Program-made: the position numbers and the translations under genes
Source: a virus
Strand: one strand, 5' to 3'
IMG/VR virus record: IMGVR_UViG_3300044822_000077
Span: 1-42,469 of that record
DNA: 42,469 nt
The notes under the pieces: generated by a model
What the model saw: the letters and a program-made list of their open reading frames with translations, nothing else
What the model was told of the DNA's origin: nothing
The model's database searches: none
Shown here: positions 25,344 through 39,973 of the stretch, piece by piece
Position numbering within the stretch: the first letter of the stretch is position 1
Layout of the letters: each line of letters opens with the position of its first letter

Positions 25344-26000
25344 TCATGGCTCTTCTCGTTCAATTAACTCGATTAAGTAATTAATTTGCGCCGAGTCAGC
25401 CGCCGAGGCCGCCGAACGAGCCGCCGAGGCCGCCGAATGAACCGCCAAGTCAGCCGCCGAACGAGCCGCCGAGTCAGCCGCCGAACGAGCCGCCCAGTCA
25501 GCCGCCGAAGCCGCCGAGTAAGCCGCCGAGGCCGCCGAACGAGCCGCCGAGTAAGCCGCCGAGGCCGCCGAACGAGCCGCCAAGTAAGCCGCCAAGTCAG
25601 CCGCCGAGTCAGCCGCCGAAGCCGCCGAGTCAGCCGAGTCAGCCGCCGAACGAGCCGCCGAATGAGCCGCCGCAAGTTCCGCCTCTGTTGCCTCGCCTTT
25701 TATAAAACGCTCAGCAACATCACAAGCCACAATACTACGGGGATCAACAGATGTCTGTAGTGCTAGTGCCTGCCGCGCACACCACACCGCAAACAGCCTA
25801 TTTGTTCTGTCAGACAGAAAGTGCTTAGCTACCCAAATCCGATCGCGAGTCGGTACGTTCTCTTGCCGTAAGAAATCCACCACACTGCCCTCATAGTTCT
25901 CGGGCAGCTTCTCGGCCGGGTCATAGCATGGGCCAAGGGCACGGATCTTGTCACAAGTGATTGGCCCAAAGGCGTGGATCAAGGCGGCTTCATCCGTCAT
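25344..26000 (-). CDS. Protein with Ala/Ser-rich helical repeat domain
   Basis: This is a 218-residue protein. The N-terminal 110 residues look globular (RDRIWVAKHFLSDRTNRLFA, then CARQAL...DPRS...AERFIKGEATEAELAAA), resembling small putative immunity-type (Imm5-like) proteins seen in phages and bacteria. Residues 115-205 are nearly pure Ala with Ser, Asp, Arg and Tyr in SAAx units spaced 4-3 and 4-4-3. This heptad/hendecad pattern predicts a long amphipathic helix or coiled coil. Its ATG overlaps the Erf stop, so it is co-translated with Erf. The function is unknown. Confidence 0.7.
   Translation of the reverse strand: MTDEAALIHAFGPITCDKIRALGPCYDPAEKLPENYEGSVVDFLRQENVPTRDRIWVAKHFLSDRTNRLFAVWCARQALALQTSVDPRSIVACDVAERFIKGEATEAELAAAHSAARSAADSADSAASAADSAADLAAYLAARSAASAAYSAARSAASAAYSAASAADWAARSAADSAARSAADLAVHSAASAARSAASAADSAQINYLIELIEREEP
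25391..25672. repeat. Degenerate GCCGCCGAR tandem repeat tract
   Basis: A run of 9- to 12-base units built on GCCGCCGAG, GCCGCCGAA and GCCGAGTCA covers about 280 bp and encodes the Ala/Ser-rich helix on the minus strand. Unit boundaries shift by 3 or 12 bases. The tract could expand or contract by slippage without changing frame. Confidence 0.85.
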
Positions 26001-28828: not shown

Positions 28829-29037
28829 TGTGCTTCCTCCAATCTCATTATTTTCTCGGAACCTTGATAAAGGTTGGCGAAGGCCTTGGCAAGCTTAAAT
28901 AAGCGGGCCGAAGATTTTAGCAGCGCATGGGCAGATGGGTCAAATTTGCATAGTTGCTTGACCTGTGCCGATGAGGGGAGCACAGTGACGGGACAGCAAT
29001 CGGAGCACTTACAGGAAGATGATGGCTGGTTAACCAA
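28825..29037 (-). CDS. Possible first gene of leftward operon
   Basis: This is a 70-residue frame from TTG 29037, only 6 bp after the leader hairpin, with a Cys-rich start (CKCSDCC) and a basic helical end (ARLFKLAKAFANLYQ). It has no clear ribosome site, and an internal GTG at about codon 19 is an alternative. Its stop overlaps the next GTG (GTGA), which supports translation of the 3' part. Confidence 0.4.
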   Translation of the reverse strand: MVNQPSSSCKCSDCCPVTVLPSSAQVKQLCKFDPSAHALLKSSARLFKLAKAFANLYQGSEKIMRLEEAQ

Positions 29038-29155: not shown

Positions 29156-29989
29156 ATGACGAGACCGTTTCTAAAGCTTCCTAGAGCATTCTGCAACTTC
29201 AAAGATCGCACCAATCCCTTCTTTCGCGCCGCCGACAAATTCAGCTTCTACTGCTTCCTCGCCAACGAGGCCAACTGGTGTGACGGCGAAGACGAACTCC
29301 AGGAGGGGGGCACCCTCAAAGCTGGTCAGGTTTTAATCAGCCGACGCGATCTGGCCGACATCCTGAACGTGTCCGAGAAGAAGGTCCGATGCACCCTCGG
29401 GTGGCTCGTTGACCGCGGACTGATCTCGATTTGTGGAAATCACAAGGGCCCAATAAAGGGCCCAATAAAGGGCCCAAAAAAGGGCCCAATTGCGATGGTG
29501 ATAACCATTTGCAATTATTTGGAAATATTCGCTGGCCAAGCAGCCAAGGGCCCAATAAAGGGCCCAATAAAGGGCCCAATAAAGGGCCCTCTCAAGAGAC
29601 CTATTGAGACAGAAAGAGAAGAGGGAGAAGAAGAACGCGCGCGCGCGCGCGAGCCGCATCCCTCCTCCCCCTCCCTTGAACTCATTAAGACCCAGGAGGA
29701 AGCCGTCACTCCTGAGCAGAGGGAGAAGGCCCAGGTCATGCAAGCGATGTGGAACCGGTGTGCTACCAATCTGCGCCCCTGCAATGGGCTCATGCGGAGG
29801 AGGATCATCGAGGCTGCGGCCCGCTTCGACGAGATGCCTGACCTCGACTACTGGGAGCAGATCTTCGAGTGCATCAACGATTCGCCCTTCTGCACGGGAA
29901 AGAAAGGCTGGGTAGCTTCGTTTGATTGGGCTATAAAGCCCGACACTCACATTTATGTTTCCGAAAGTCGCTACGCAGACAAGGCTTGA
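29156..29989 (+). CDS. Replication initiator with wHTH and internal iterons
   Basis: This is a 277-residue protein. Residues 1-95 form a winged-helix domain typical of phage replication initiators (FLKLPRAFCNFKDR; AGQVLISRRDLADILNVSEK with the recognition helix; LVDRGLISI). Residues 97-147 are low complexity: KGPI repeats in two blocks, then an acidic and basic linker. Residues 180-277 are a helical C-terminal domain (QAMWNRCATNLRPCNGLMRR; WEQIFECINDSPFC) resembling helicase-loader or DnaD-like domains. It precedes the DnaB helicase gene by 3 bp, as an O/P-like pair. The repeat-coding DNA is itself likely the origin. Confidence 0.75.
   Translation: MTRPFLKLPRAFCNFKDRTNPFFRAADKFSFYCFLANEANWCDGEDELQEGGTLKAGQVLISRRDLADILNVSEKKVRCTLGWLVDRGLISICGNHKGPIKGPIKGPKKGPIAMVITICNYLEIFAGQAAKGPIKGPIKGPIKGPLKRPIETEREEGEEERARAREPHPSSPSLELIKTQEEAVTPEQREKAQVMQAMWNRCATNLRPCNGLMRRRIIEAAARFDEMPDLDYWEQIFECINDSPFCTGKKGWVASFDWAIKPDTHIYVSESRYADKA
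29444..29491. repeat. Iteron array 1: four 12-bp GGGCCC repeats
   Basis: Four consecutive 12-bp units of the form AAGGGCCCAATA have GGGCCC at 29446, 29458, 29470 and 29482; the last two units vary at their 3' ends. Each centres on a 6-bp palindrome. A 54-bp A/T-rich spacer follows, before array 2. They encode KGPI repeats in the initiator. Probably initiator-binding sites. Confidence 0.85.
29546..29593. repeat. Iteron array 2: four 12-bp GGGCCC repeats
   Basis: Four units with GGGCCC at 29548, 29560, 29572 and 29584, exactly the period of array 1; three are AAGGGCCCAATA and the last ends CTCTC. Together with array 1 this gives eight copies in a 4+4 arrangement, followed 18 bp later by a polypurine tract. 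Confidence 0.85.
29611..29651. other. Polypurine tract plus (CG)8, candidate unwinding region
   Basis: Positions 29611..29635 are 25 uninterrupted purines on the plus strand, directly followed by alternating (CG)8 at 29636..29651. Lambdoid origins have a strand-asymmetric melting region next to their iterons; this tract occupies the same relative place. Alternating CG can form Z-DNA under torsion. Confidence 0.5.
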
Positions 29990-29992
29990 GTC

Positions 29993-31423
29993 ATGACAAC
30001 ATTCGGCCAGCAGATAGGGCACATCTCGCGCCTGACTGAGAAAGAACGTTGTGAATTTGACCTTTTAGGCATGTTGATGAGGCACCAAGGCGGTTACGAG
30101 AAGACGGCCCTGCGTCATGTCATGGAGACGGGCCTCAGACCGGACCACTTTGACCGCGAGAGCCACCGGGCCTTTTACAGGATCATCCTCACCCTCGGCG
30201 ATGAGGGGCGGCCCTTCGACTTTATCGAGGCATACAAACAGCTTCCGCAAGAGAGCTCTGATTGGTGCCAAGAGATGGCCGAGATGATGGAGCACGCGCC
30301 GATTGCCCAGAATGAGATTTATTTCGCCAACAGGATCTTGGCCAAGGTGGTCTCCGAAAAGGCTATCGAGAAGACCCAGAGTCTAAGCCATGCGCTGAAG
30401 CACGAGGTCTTCGATACAGTCCCGGCAGTTCAGGACCGGGTTAGCTCAACCTTGACGGCTGTCGCGGCCATAGAGCCGGTCAAGATGGGTGCCGCGATCA
30501 ATATTGCCGAGGCTACCGAGCGGCTTCTCGATGCCATGACCAAGGCCATGGCGGACGCCGAGAAGGGCAAAGCGATCTTAATCCCCACCGGCCTTGAGGA
30601 CTTTGATGCCCATTACGTCGGACTGAACCGTCAAGGGCTTCATGTTCTGGGTGCCCGGCCTGGGGTGGGCAAGACCACCACCGCGCTCAACATAGCCCTG
30701 TCGGCGGCCGAGCAGGGGTTTGGCGTCCTCTATTTCACCCACGAGATGACCAGCGTCGAGCTGCTCAAGAAGCTGGTGGCCATGCGCGCGCGCATTACCA
30801 CGCAGAAGATGCTCACTGGCGACTTTGACGAGGATGAGACCAATCGCTTCACCAAGGCGATTGAGGACATCCAGTCGCGGGCCTTCTACATGGACGACCG
30901 CAGCATGCCCAACTGGGATCATGTGTCCCACCGTATGAAGATCATGTGCCGCCAGCACCAGATTGATCTTGTGGTCATCGATTACGTCCAACAGCTCATC
31001 CCCGGCGAGACGGGGCAGTTCTTTGGCAACCGCACGGCGGAGCTGACTCACATCACCGGGGCCATCAAACAGCTCAGCCAGGAGTTTCACACGGCCATCC
31101 TGGTGTGTGCCCAGCTCAACCGCAGTGCCGATGACGGCGTAAGCTTGCCCAGGATGAGCATGCTCAAGGACTGCGGCAGCATTGAGCAAGACGCCGATAC
31201 GGTGATGCTCGTTCACCGCGCAGCGGGGACAGATGAGGAAGACCAGCGCGACATGCTGATTGTGGATAAGCATCGCCATGCCGAGGCTAAGATAGCGTTT
31301 TACCTGGATATGCAGCTGGTTTTCGGAAACATCCGCACGTCTGGGTACTCGCGTCTCAGCGAGATCAAAGCAAAGAGCAAGAGCAGCGGAACTCGCGGCG
31401 AGTTTGGCAAGAAAGGTAAGTGA
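29993..31423 (+). CDS. Replicative DNA helicase, DnaB type
   Basis: This is a 476-residue hexameric 5'-3' helicase. The N-terminal DnaB domain is at residues 12-110 (RCEFDLLGMLMRH; LRPDHFDRESHRAFY). A RecA-like motor follows: Walker A GARPGVGKTTT (about 220-230), LYFTHEMTSVELLKK, Walker B IDLVVIDYVQQL with D330, and late motifs AQLNRSADD and LKDCGSIEQDADTV. The C-terminus is Lys/Ser-rich. Length is standard for DnaB. It starts 3 bp after the initiator gene and overlaps the next gene at its stop. Phage-encoded helicase with initiator implies self-directed theta replication; no DNA polymerase is seen, so the host polymerase is used. Confidence 0.92.
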   Translation: MTTFGQQIGHISRLTEKERCEFDLLGMLMRHQGGYEKTALRHVMETGLRPDHFDRESHRAFYRIILTLGDEGRPFDFIEAYKQLPQESSDWCQEMAEMMEHAPIAQNEIYFANRILAKVVSEKAIEKTQSLSHALKHEVFDTVPAVQDRVSSTLTAVAAIEPVKMGAAINIAEATERLLDAMTKAMADAEKGKAILIPTGLEDFDAHYVGLNRQGLHVLGARPGVGKTTTALNIALSAAEQGFGVLYFTHEMTSVELLKKLVAMRARITTQKMLTGDFDEDETNRFTKAIEDIQSRAFYMDDRSMPNWDHVSHRMKIMCRQHQIDLVVIDYVQQLIPGETGQFFGNRTAELTHITGAIKQLSQEFHTAILVCAQLNRSADDGVSLPRMSMLKDCGSIEQDADTVMLVHRAAGTDEEDQRDMLIVDKHRHAEAKIAFYLDMQLVFGNIRTSGYSRLSEIKAKSKSSGTRGEFGKKGK

Positions 31424-34600: not shown

Positions 34601-34857
34601 CTTATAATCGAGTCTGCCCCGGCTGCAGCAAGCGCTGGACGGGTGAAGTCAACAACAGCGACGGCTGGATCGACATCGAGCGCTGCCCGCGCTGCGCCGC
34701 CAAGGGGTCGCGCCGGCTTCAAAACGCCTCCGAGGACAATAAACGCAAGCGGGCATCCCGTTTGAGAATCGCAGCGAGGAAAAGCCAATGCGCCGAGCTA
34801 TCGCAGCACTTGTTTTGTGGGTATCGGCCGCTCTCCCAGCATTTGGGCAGACCGTAG
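34594..34857 (+). CDS. Zinc-ribbon protein
   Basis: This 87-residue protein starts at ATG 34594 with GAGGAG upstream. CPGCSKRW (residues 8-15) and CPRCAAKG (about 31-38) form a four-Cys zinc ribbon followed by a basic helix (RKRASRLRIAARK). The last 23 codons overlap the glycosidase gene's signal peptide region. DNA or RNA binding is possible. Confidence 0.6.
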   Translation: MVTYNRVCPGCSKRWTGEVNNSDGWIDIERCPRCAAKGSRRLQNASEDNKRKRASRLRIAARKSQCAELSQHLFCGYRPLSQHLGRP

Positions 34858-35543
34858 AAAAGGGCGTCGGCATGTGGGCCTTTCCCGGCACCAAGGCCCC
34901 CGAGGTGGGGGCGACCTGGTGGTACAACTGGAAGCCATCCCAGGGCGGCGGAAATGCCCCTGGATTCGTCCCGATGATCTGGGGGGAGCGGGACAACCTG
35001 ACCCTGGTCTTCAAGGCCTTAAAGGGGCCAGGAACGCTCCTGGGCTTCAACGAGCCGGACAACTGCGGCCGCGGCGGGACCTGCCTCTCGGTCCAGCGGG
35101 CCATCCAGATCTGGCCGCGGCTGGAGGGGACTGGCCGGCGCCTCGGTTCGCCGGCGGTGGCCTGGGACTATACCTGGCTCGACAAGTTCCTTGCGGCCGG
35201 CTGCCATGTGGACTTCCTGGCGCTCCACCATTATGAGCTGAGCCTTGAGGACCCGGAGCAGGCGGCAGTCCGCACCGTGGCCTTTCTGGCCGAGAAGCAC
35301 CAGCGGTACAACTTACCAATCTGGTTCACTGAGTTTGGCGCCCTTTGGGACAACAACCAAGACCGCATCTCGCGCTACATCCGCGCGCTAGTGCCCAAAC
35401 TGGAGCAACTCCCCTACCTGGAGCGCTACGCCTGGTTCTCCGACCATGCTTACGGGAGTGCTTGGGCGTCGGCTCTATGGGATAATCAAGGCTCACTAAC
35501 CGAAACGGGGAGGGTCTACGCTTGCCCATCGTGCGAACATTAG
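34788..35543 (+). CDS. Secreted GH128-type glycoside hydrolase
   Basis: This is a 251-residue protein. MRRAIAALVLWVSAALPAFG-Q is a Sec signal peptide (cleavage about residue 20). The mature part follows the glycosyl-hydrolase catalytic core pattern of family GH128: WWYNW (44-48), FVPMIWG, LLGFNEPD with the acid/base E89, LGSPAVAWDY, VDFLALHHYE, PIWFTEFG with the nucleophile E182, and RYAWFSDHAYG. GH128 enzymes known to date are endo-beta-1,3-glucanases. A phage copy with a signal peptide would act outside the inner membrane on exopolysaccharide, capsule or periplasmic glucan. It overlaps the next gene by 22 bp. Confidence 0.78.
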   Translation: MRRAIAALVLWVSAALPAFGQTVEKGVGMWAFPGTKAPEVGATWWYNWKPSQGGGNAPGFVPMIWGERDNLTLVFKALKGPGTLLGFNEPDNCGRGGTCLSVQRAIQIWPRLEGTGRRLGSPAVAWDYTWLDKFLAAGCHVDFLALHHYELSLEDPEQAAVRTVAFLAEKHQRYNLPIWFTEFGALWDNNQDRISRYIRALVPKLEQLPYLERYAWFSDHAYGSAWASALWDNQGSLTETGRVYACPSCEH

Positions 35544-36818: not shown

Positions 36819-36863
36819 ATGCATTGCAAGCCTCTTTTTCTGGGAAATAGGGAAGAGAGTGCC

Positions 36864-37712
36864 ATGTCGATCCGTCTCGTGAGCTCCGAGCCCCGTCATT
36901 CATCAAAGAATACTTTGTCGAACGCCCCGGCAGCTGGTTTTGACCGGTATGCGGGCGGTAGATACCTGACCGCAATCCGCTATATCAGGGACTTAGCCGG
37001 TCCTTCCAAGTCAGTCCTGGCCGTCATCGGCAGCCTGATTAACTTCAATGATTTTAGCGCCGAATGGTTCGTCACTATCGAAAAGCTTGCCGAGTACTCA
37101 GGTTTCGGCACGACCACCGTCAAAGCGGCCGTCGCCGATCTCATCGAGCGGGGCTATATCACCCGGCGCAAGCAGCGCTGGCACGGTCGGAATGGGGCTA
37201 ATGCCTACAGGCTGACCGACCGGGTCTTCGCCAACTTCGAGGAAGCTCACGGCGCTCATGTTGAGAGACCGGAGCCGGCACTCGCGCCCGAAACCGCATC
37301 CCAGCGGTCGGGAGACGACCGCTGGACAGCGAGCCAAAAGCCATCAGCCGACCAAAGCCAGCGGTCGGGAGACGACCGTAACCAGCGGTCGCCTGACGGC
37401 CGAAAACTCCTAAAGGAAGCTCGCAAAGAAAACTTCCCAATTATTACCCCTGAAGAGGAAGCAAAAATAATCGGAGAGACCCTCTACGTGCCGACGGAGG
37501 AGCGGCGGCAGCGCGGCGCCTTTGTCCGACTCGGTCCCGTCCACGCCGTTATGGAGGCGGCGCTGAAGCGCTATGGCATTGAAGCCCTCCGGTGGCTCCG
37601 GGACAAGGCGCTCGAGCAGCGCATGTGCGGAGAAGTGTCCTGGAGTCCCAGGCGTCTCTTTGAGTCGCTCGACAGCTTCCAGGCTGCAGGCATGACGATG
37701 TGCGCACAGTGA
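36864..37712 (+). CDS. Second wHTH replication/regulatory protein with internal repeats
   Basis: This 282-residue protein starts at ATG 36864. Residues 35-125 form a winged helix (SVLAVIGSLINFNDFS; TIEKLAEYSGFGTTTVKAAV with the recognition helix; LIERGYITRRKQRW). A linker at 145-190 carries QRSGDDR repeats, whose DNA is an inverted-repeat set. The C-terminal 90 residues are helical (AVMEAALKRYGIEALRWLRD). The layout mirrors the 29156 initiator (wHTH, repeat linker, helical C-terminus) with different repeats. It may be a second initiator, or a regulator. Confidence 0.65.
   Translation: MSIRLVSSEPRHSSKNTLSNAPAAGFDRYAGGRYLTAIRYIRDLAGPSKSVLAVIGSLINFNDFSAEWFVTIEKLAEYSGFGTTTVKAAVADLIERGYITRRKQRWHGRNGANAYRLTDRVFANFEEAHGAHVERPEPALAPETASQRSGDDRWTASQKPSADQSQRSGDDRNQRSPDGRKLLKEARKENFPIITPEEEAKIIGETLYVPTEERRQRGAFVRLGPVHAVMEAALKRYGIEALRWLRDKALEQRMCGEVSWSPRRLFESLDSFQAAGMTMCAQ
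37302..37391. repeat. CAGCGGTCG repeats inside the second wHTH gene
   Basis: CAGCGGTCG occurs at 37302, 37359 and 37383. The first copy, with CGACCGCTG at 37316..37324, forms a perfect 9-bp inverted repeat around GGAGA. The second has 6 of the partner bases and the third is degenerate. Candidate binding sites for the encoded protein. Confidence 0.7.
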
Positions 37713-38689: not shown

Positions 38690-39973
38690 ATGCCGGGCGC
38701 AAATTATGCTGAGGTCCAAGCATACGGTAACTTGGAACAGCTTTATGATGAAGACCTGACATATCAGGAAAACATCAAAAACAGCTTTTTCAATAAAATC
38801 CGTAAAGCTGGCAAGAGTGACGTTGAATTCGATGGCGCGGCATGGAATGTCGGCGTGACCTTTGTCCTCAACGAAAGCTACGCCGCGATCAACGACGGCG
38901 AGCGTTTGCCCGACCCGGACTATCAAAAAGGCGTCTTCGCTCAGTACAACAGCAAGCTGATGTACTCGCAAATCGAAGCGACCACCTATGCCGCGACCCG
39001 CGGTTACAAGAACGGTCGCCCAACAGGAAAGTATTTAGACGATCTAATCAAAGGAACTTTGTTGACTTTTAACAGCAACAATGACTTTGATGCCTACGGA
39101 AACGGCCGCGGCTATCGCGCCACCATCGCGACGGCCACGGGCGCCGCGACCTCGTTTACGGTCACCTTCTCGACGCGCCTGCGCTCGAACATGGTGCTGG
39201 ACTGGTACGACAGCACGCTGACGACCAAGAAGGGCTCGATCAAGATCTCGAACCAAGGCGTCGATCACATTGCGCGCACGGTTTACATCGACACCACCTA
39301 CGGCACCGGCGCTGTGCCCTCGACGGCCGCGGCCAACGATGTGCTGGTGGTGGCGCGCGCGCTGGATCCCGGTGAGCCGAGCGACGGCCGCTACATGGCC
39401 GGATACCTGCGCCTCGTAGACAACACCGTAGCACTGGGAGGATTATCCCCGAGTTCTTGGGCGCTATGGCAGGCGGTAAACATCAATGCCGGTTTAGCAA
39501 ATCCGAACCAAGAAATTTTGCAGCAAGTTCATGATCAAAGCTACATAGTTTCTGGTTTATATCCTAATATTGGTGTGATCAACCCCTCCTGGAAGCGTGG
39601 CTACCTCTCTGGCTTCCTTGGCCAGCGCCGGTTTACCACGAACTCCTTCGATACTGGCGCCACTCGCCTCTCCTGGTCCGCCGTCAAGATGGGCCAAGAC
39701 GAGAGCAAGATGAAGCCGGTTGAAATGGAATGGATCGAGGATAAAAACCAAAATCCTGCTAACGTTTTTATGTACAACCAATCGGCTTGGATGTTCGCCT
39801 CTGACTACAGCGACACGCCGCACTTGGCCGATGAAGACGGCGCGGAATTCCGCTTCCGCATCGGCTTTGACTCGATGCAAGGGTTCATCCGCTTCTGGGG
39901 CAACACGGTTGTGAAGCAGCGCAACGCGCTCAGCATCATCACCAACTTCAACGTTGCCTCGGGAACGGTCTAA
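38690..39973 (+). CDS. Major capsid protein
   Basis: This is a 427-residue protein with HK97-fold-like character. N-arm (NYAEVQAYGNLEQLYDEDLT), extended E-loop-like strands (DVEFDGAAWNVGVTFVLNES), a spine-helix-like stretch (SQIEATTYAATRGYKNG), beta-rich P/A domains and a C-terminal strand set (RFRIGFDSMQGFIRFWGN). It matches capsids of environmental short-tailed phages. It has its own promoter, as expected for the most abundant protein. Cysteine-free. Followed 3 bp later by a small gene. Confidence 0.8.
   Translation: MPGANYAEVQAYGNLEQLYDEDLTYQENIKNSFFNKIRKAGKSDVEFDGAAWNVGVTFVLNESYAAINDGERLPDPDYQKGVFAQYNSKLMYSQIEATTYAATRGYKNGRPTGKYLDDLIKGTLLTFNSNNDFDAYGNGRGYRATIATATGAATSFTVTFSTRLRSNMVLDWYDSTLTTKKGSIKISNQGVDHIARTVYIDTTYGTGAVPSTAAANDVLVVARALDPGEPSDGRYMAGYLRLVDNTVALGGLSPSSWALWQAVNINAGLANPNQEILQQVHDQSYIVSGLYPNIGVINPSWKRGYLSGFLGQRRFTTNSFDTGATRLSWSAVKMGQDESKMKPVEMEWIEDKNQNPANVFMYNQSAWMFASDYSDTPHLADEDGAEFRFRIGFDSMQGFIRFWGNTVVKQRNALSIITNFNVASGTV

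Follow-up and report, generated by a model that had tools for sequence, protein, structure and literature searches.

Phased GGGCCC iterons inside an O-like initiator gene: a probable phage replication origin

What are two arrays of one 12-bp unit doing inside the coding sequence of a wHTH protein? The question is raised by IMG/VR virus record IMGVR_UViG_3300044822_000077, the whole of which (42,469 nucleotides) is the window analysed here. An earlier note on this DNA had suggested a lambda-like intragenic origin. On the basis of sequence comparison with relatives and of analogy with characterised origins, the arrays are very probably iterons to which the initiator binds, in a theta-type origin of phage replication located inside the initiator gene itself.

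The arrays and the gene that contains them

Eight copies of GGGCCC start at positions 29446, 29458, 29470 and 29482 and at positions 29548, 29560, 29572 and 29584. These are two blocks of four at steps of exactly 12 bp, as the earlier note had described, with 66 bp from the last copy of the first block to the first copy of the second. One further copy occurs in the 42,469 bases, where dinucleotide shuffles predict about 23 overall, so the clustering is not a matter of chance. Both arrays were recovered by Tandem Repeats Finder with the unit AAGGGCCCAATA (scores 87 and 88). Array 1 (29444..29491, plus strand) consists of four such 12-bp units, the third ending in AAAA and the fourth in AATT, and encodes KGPIKGPIKGPKKGPI. 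Array 2 (29546..29593, plus strand) also has four, the last reading AAGGGCCCTCTC; it is followed by a diverged unit, AAGAGACCTATT, identified by reading the sequence (29594..29605, plus strand; peptide KRPI), which is the fifth of this array and the ninth overall. The A/T-rich spacer between the arrays (29492..29545, plus strand) had been given as 54 bp, which holds when it is counted between full 12-bp units; measured from one GGGCCC core to the next across it (29488-29547), the length is 60 bp, of which 60% is A+T. Also present as described are a 25-nt all-purine run (29611..29635, plus strand), a candidate for the strand-asymmetric unwinding side and the sole purine run in the window to reach 20 nt, and a (CG)8 tract directly 3' of it (29636..29651, plus strand).

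The arrays lie within a gene for an O-like wHTH replication initiator of 277 aa (29156..29989, plus strand; PHROG 345 'replication initiation O-like', E=5.7e-15). Directly downstream is the gene of a DnaB-type replicative helicase (29993..31423, plus strand; Pfam DnaB_C, E=5.1e-56; PHROG 19, E=9e-67), in agreement with the gene context proposed earlier. The weak Pfam matches of the initiator are GntR/Crp-like, and the Phage_rep_O domain was absent from its Pfam matches in a search up to E=1. As wHTH proteins are commonly regulators, the arrays might be operators through which the protein regulates transcription of its own gene, with no origin at this place. Such a role is quite improbable: the sites are 290-440 bp into the gene, away from a promoter, the PHROG matches are to replication initiators with a DnaB-type helicase gene next to them, and the probably homologous gene of phage SPP1 holds a proven origin at this place (PMC6316719).

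An AlphaFold2 model of the initiator, built on a 29-sequence alignment, shows a confident wHTH (pLDDT of about 90, and above 90 for residues 61-90), followed by strands 90-96 and 113-118, which form the wing. Confidence is low at residues 103-107 and 128-157, with pLDDT below 50 for the latter. With these strand limits and this low-confidence region, residues 97-112 of the model, encoded by array 1, fall in the wing loop, and residues 131-146, encoded by array 2, in a disordered linker. A search of PDB folds with the initiator gave weak wHTH matches only (best E=0.01); these, with the solved plasmid-type initiators 4pt7 and 5kbj among them, were set aside as too weak.

The cumulative GC skew of the window, which had been proposed as a check, has its minimum at 28,857, about 600 bp from the array. 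This agrees with an origin here, but it is weak evidence because the minimum coincides with the switch from leftward to rightward genes. The window also contains a second O-like/DnaD-like wHTH gene (36819-37712; PHROG 391, 270 and 678; Pfam HTH_36), the protein of which has no relative among named phages at E<=0.001. Its linker holds three 21-bp repeats (CCAGCGGTCGGGAGACGACCG, exact at 37301 and 37358, with an 81% copy at 37382). There are in this one phage two candidate intragenic origins, and the active one could be in the second gene, the GGGCCC array being a relic or a secondary origin. The PHROG matches of this gene to O-like initiators favour that possibility, as do its repeats, which are partly palindromic like lambda iterons. 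It is nonetheless unlikely, since the gene is not adjacent to the helicase gene, the skew minimum is not near 37.3 kb, and the units of the GGGCCC array are more numerous and better kept.

Several other features of the window were observed. On the minus strand, the gene at 25344-26000 contains a 284-bp stretch of 12/21/33-bp repeats that encodes an Ala/Ser-rich tract (SAASAADSAA and similar). The terminase large subunit (1003-2589) is encoded at the left end and the major head protein (38690-39973) at the right end; the head module therefore appears to span the record ends, as would be expected of a circular or permuted genome. A glycosyl hydrolase catalytic-core protein (34788-35543; Pfam PF11790, 1.6e-42) is encoded between the replication and head genes. 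No near relative of the first 25 kb of the window was identified among named phages.

Phased iterons in the same two loops of related genes

The same GGGCCC array was found in no other IMG/VR contig scanned. The DNA pattern AAGGGCCCnnnnAAGGGCCC retrieved 75 stretches from IMG/VR, which were rejected as candidates: those read were short hairpin-like pairs or lay in other genes, none with a 4+4 array, and many of the hairpin-like pairs read were terminator-like, followed by T or A/T flanks. An IMG/VR search baited with the neighbouring DnaB gene returned no relative, and direct searches for homologues of the initiator among phages, plasmids and genomes returned distant relatives only. A close relative carrying the iteron of the window was not found in these searches. 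Each of the first distant relatives carried repeats of its own in the two positions where the window has them.

Relatives were gathered by peptide alone, using degenerate patterns for ITICNY(D/E)xYQ and MVITICNY and ignoring the repeats. The first set comprises at least 120 distinct initiator genes of the ITICNY type and the second at least 71 more, in which V, T, I or A replaces C in ITICNY. Pooled, these are at least 191 initiator genes (120 + 71), plus the window. Both sets are samples in which relatedness was treated by clustering alone.

Most of the 191 initiator genes among the matches listed have iterons of their own in the same two loops. A 6-mer common to both flanks and present in at least four copies was found in 73% of 120 listed genes plus the window; shuffling of synonymous codons within each gene lowered this to 16% of the 120 genes among the matches listed. 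In the pooled 191 plus the window, 119 genes among the matches listed contain four or more copies of some 7-mer. From one copy to the next, the distance in the matches listed is 11 bp in 153 cases and 12 bp in 104, the other spacings being mainly 22-24 bp; sixteen spacings of 9 bp come from the A/T-rich tails of a few of the genes listed. Toward the 3' end, the gaps in the listed relatives are mostly 11 bp. The distance across the segment between the flanks has its mode at 66 bp among the matches listed, with other clusters near 55, 78, 90 and 101 bp, and a period of ~11.6 bp was fitted to it (Rayleigh p ~2e-11 with the modal group reduced to a single case, among the matches listed). The 66-bp gap of the window is thus the family mode among the matches listed. 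Four units upstream of this segment, as in the window, are the maximum among the matches listed, nearly all of which have 0 to 2. These arrays in relatives, with their 11/12-bp spacing and their place in two loops, support the intragenic-origin reading of the earlier note.

A different account would make the KGPI peptide the selected object, as a flexible or binding repeat, with the DNA repeats following from it. The eight units of the window, all read as AAG GGC CCA ATA in a single frame, would suit such an account, and the earlier note had asked whether relatives keep KGPI with freely varying codons. They do not: the relatives are without KGPI altogether and keep iteron arrays, and a search for KGPI with free codons gave no match in IMG/VR. 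In 99 of the 119 genes among the matches listed, copies of a single DNA word fall in two or three frames and give unrelated peptides. Since one DNA word occupies up to three reading frames, the peptide cannot be the selected object, which on this comparison is the DNA. The units moreover use the rarer codons ATA and CCA, which make up 10% of Ile codons and 15% of Pro codons, respectively, in the other genes of the window. Peptide selection is accordingly very improbable as the source of the repeats, and the suggestion of the earlier note that KGPI is a by-product of DNA-site selection is supported.

Equally hard to credit is an origin of the tandem repeats in neutral replication slippage within disordered loops. 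Units of 12 bp keep the frame and the loops are disordered in the AlphaFold2 model, as slippage would permit, but in the window identical units form two arrays apart from each other, most relatives among the matches listed have independent arrays in these two positions, and phase is maintained across the core. The many 11-bp arrays also argue against it, because slippage alone would give frameshifts.

The iterons of the relatives are all direct repeats and mostly non-palindromic among the matches listed, so the GGGCCC palindrome of the window is probably incidental. Past the last iteron, the tails of the listed relatives are 73% purine and 53% A; beyond array 2 the window is less A/T-rich than its relatives and runs into (CG)8. 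The (CG)8 tract, the GGGCCC core and the four units in the segment coding for the wing are unusual features of the window. On sequence comparison, more than 100 other phage genes have differently spelled putative iterons at the same spot, with a short core common to nearly all.

A conserved core between the arrays

This core is the most surprising part of the locus and is absent from the account of the earlier note. In the window, the core element ATAACCATTTGCAATTA (29501..29517, plus strand) lies where the gene encodes the final strand of the wing (ITICNY), is a member of the conserved ATAACnATnTGTAATTA, and has the codons GTG ATA ACC ATT TGC AAT TAT. The search pattern permitted ATA, ATC or ATT at the first Ile, and yet ATA was found there in 117 of 120 genes among the matches listed. 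Elsewhere in those genes among the matches listed, ATA accounts for 507 of 1566 Ile codons (32%). In the listed genes with GC3 above 0.65, the core codon is ATA in 27/27 cases versus 15% elsewhere. The second Ile of the core is free (66 ATC, 34 ATT and 20 ATA in the 120 genes among the matches listed), as is a control Ile encoded ahead of the wing (ATA in 20/87 among the matches listed). The core Asn is AAT in 90/120 and the core Cys TGT in 100/120 of the genes listed. When the wHTH sequences were clustered at 60% identity, 67 of the 69 clusters among the matches listed were exclusively ATA. The core is therefore probably a DNA site in its own right, kept at synonymous positions across the family.

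Two other explanations of the core were dropped. It was considered as a -10 promoter element, but the base preceding ATAAC is not conserved; an effect of rare codons or pausing was considered for ATA, but A/T-rich genes retain ATA as well. The sole ATC core among the 120 ITICNY genes in the matches listed belongs to locus L174, where the flanking repeats look weaker; for that reason its origin may lie elsewhere.

In the second set, the first core Ile is ATA in 42/71 and ATT in 24/71 of the genes among the matches listed. ATT is found together with AAC, and ATA together with AAT (Fisher p=0.002 among the matches listed, uncorrected for relatedness). In relatives with V for C (e.g. the viral loci L230, L232, L237, L273 and L277), the core often reads TAATTACnATnGTTAAC. 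Tentatively, this could be the usual core in inverted orientation, which the pairing of codons would fit.

Comparison with known origins and a proposed mechanism

The closest characterised system is gene 38 of Bacillus phage SPP1 with its origin oriL, which is closer than lambda. It has been described that oriL is proven to lie within gene 38, that direct repeats together with an A/T-rich region for unwinding make up the SPP1 origins, and that gp38 binds the direct repeats with nanomolar affinity (PMC6316719). The window protein gave no direct match to SPP1 gene 38, which was retrieved using the relative L078 as the query (E=7e-3); the window protein matches L078 at 8e-12. Anatomy and this two-step homology chain, in place of a direct match, speak for membership of the window gene in the SPP1 gene-38 group. 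In common with the window, oriL has a probably related wHTH initiator, an iteron in the wing-coding segment, iterons in the linker and a DnaB-type helicase nearby (G38P initiator, G39P loader and G40P helicase), and it has an A/T-rich tail. SPP1 gene 38 has one GACA-type unit, then the core, with 69 bp across it, and then units at 11-11-11 bp. In both phages, direct repeats spaced at about a helical turn flank the last wing strand (12 bp with 66 bp across in the window, 11 bp with 69 bp in SPP1), and the core Ile codon is ATA (GTG ATA ACC in the window, GTT ATA AAG in SPP1). SPP1 differs in its GACA-type rather than GGGCCC iteron, in having one unit before the core instead of four, and in possessing a separate helicase loader and a second origin, oriR.

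The lambda origin (gene O) and the P22 origin (gene 18) also have intragenic iterons downstream of the DNA-binding domain, with a purine-rich side beyond them, and in P22 the DnaB homologue is the next gene. The comparison with lambda in the earlier note therefore stands as regards iterons in an initiator gene beside a strand-asymmetric region, but gives way to SPP1 as the nearest precedent. The note was correct that the geometry is unlike lambda, whose four iterons measure 18-19 bp and recur every 20-24 bp, in place of 12-bp direct units. Neither lambda nor P22 has an array in the wing loop, and P22 gene 18 lacks both the ITICNY strand and the ATA core. Membership of the lambda O family is not claimed, given the lack of a Phage_rep_O match and the different iteron geometry. 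Staphylococcus phage 80alpha encodes a G38P homologue, ORF20 (26% identical), the deletion of which is not complemented in trans, from which its authors infer an embedded origin (PMC5499656). Origin annotations (rep_origin) lie mid-gene in the initiator genes of P22 and, as putative, 80alpha. Taken as intragenic like that of the window, the 80alpha origin is associated with a different wing, no ITICNY and repeats at ~15 bp. With SPP1, 80alpha, P22 and lambda as precedents, an origin inside the initiator gene is therefore of a known kind.

By analogy, we infer that SPP1 oriL is the model for how the window array works, with the lambda origin as a looser parallel. Judging from homology, the wHTH initiator would bind the directly repeated 12-bp units on either side of the A/T-rich core. 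As the units are about one helical turn apart and phase is kept across the core, the protomers would align on one face of the DNA, and they may wrap the region. The adjacent purine-rich, strand-asymmetric stretch would then open, and the initiator would bring the phage's own DnaB-type helicase, product of the gene directly downstream, to the opened strand. The KGPI repeats would be the spelling of the DNA sites in this frame, in a wing loop and a linker that accept nearly any peptide.

The wider generalisation is held more tentatively, as a possibility somewhat short of even confidence. The locus may represent a very widespread class of tailed-phage origin that is bipartite: fast-changing phased iterons would flank a slowly changing 17-bp core, ATAACnATnTGTAATTA or the inverted-looking TAATTACnATnGTTAAC, embedded in the sequence for the wing strand of the initiator, and this core would be a site shared across the class for some factor. 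As the DNA-contacting wing of the initiator would be encoded by its own sites, iteron sequence and binding surface would change together. In the open-access literature, with most subscription papers outside its scope, no description of the shared core, the two-sided layout or the cross-family 11/12-bp ladder was found.

To our knowledge, the origins of most sequenced phages are unknown. An ITICNY-type wing strand together with an 11/12-bp ladder would allow the likely origin to be located in many phages and prophages at once. A core conserved at synonymous sites raises the direct question of what binds it, and a wing spelled by its own binding sites would offer a concrete system for the joint change of initiator specificity and origin sequence.
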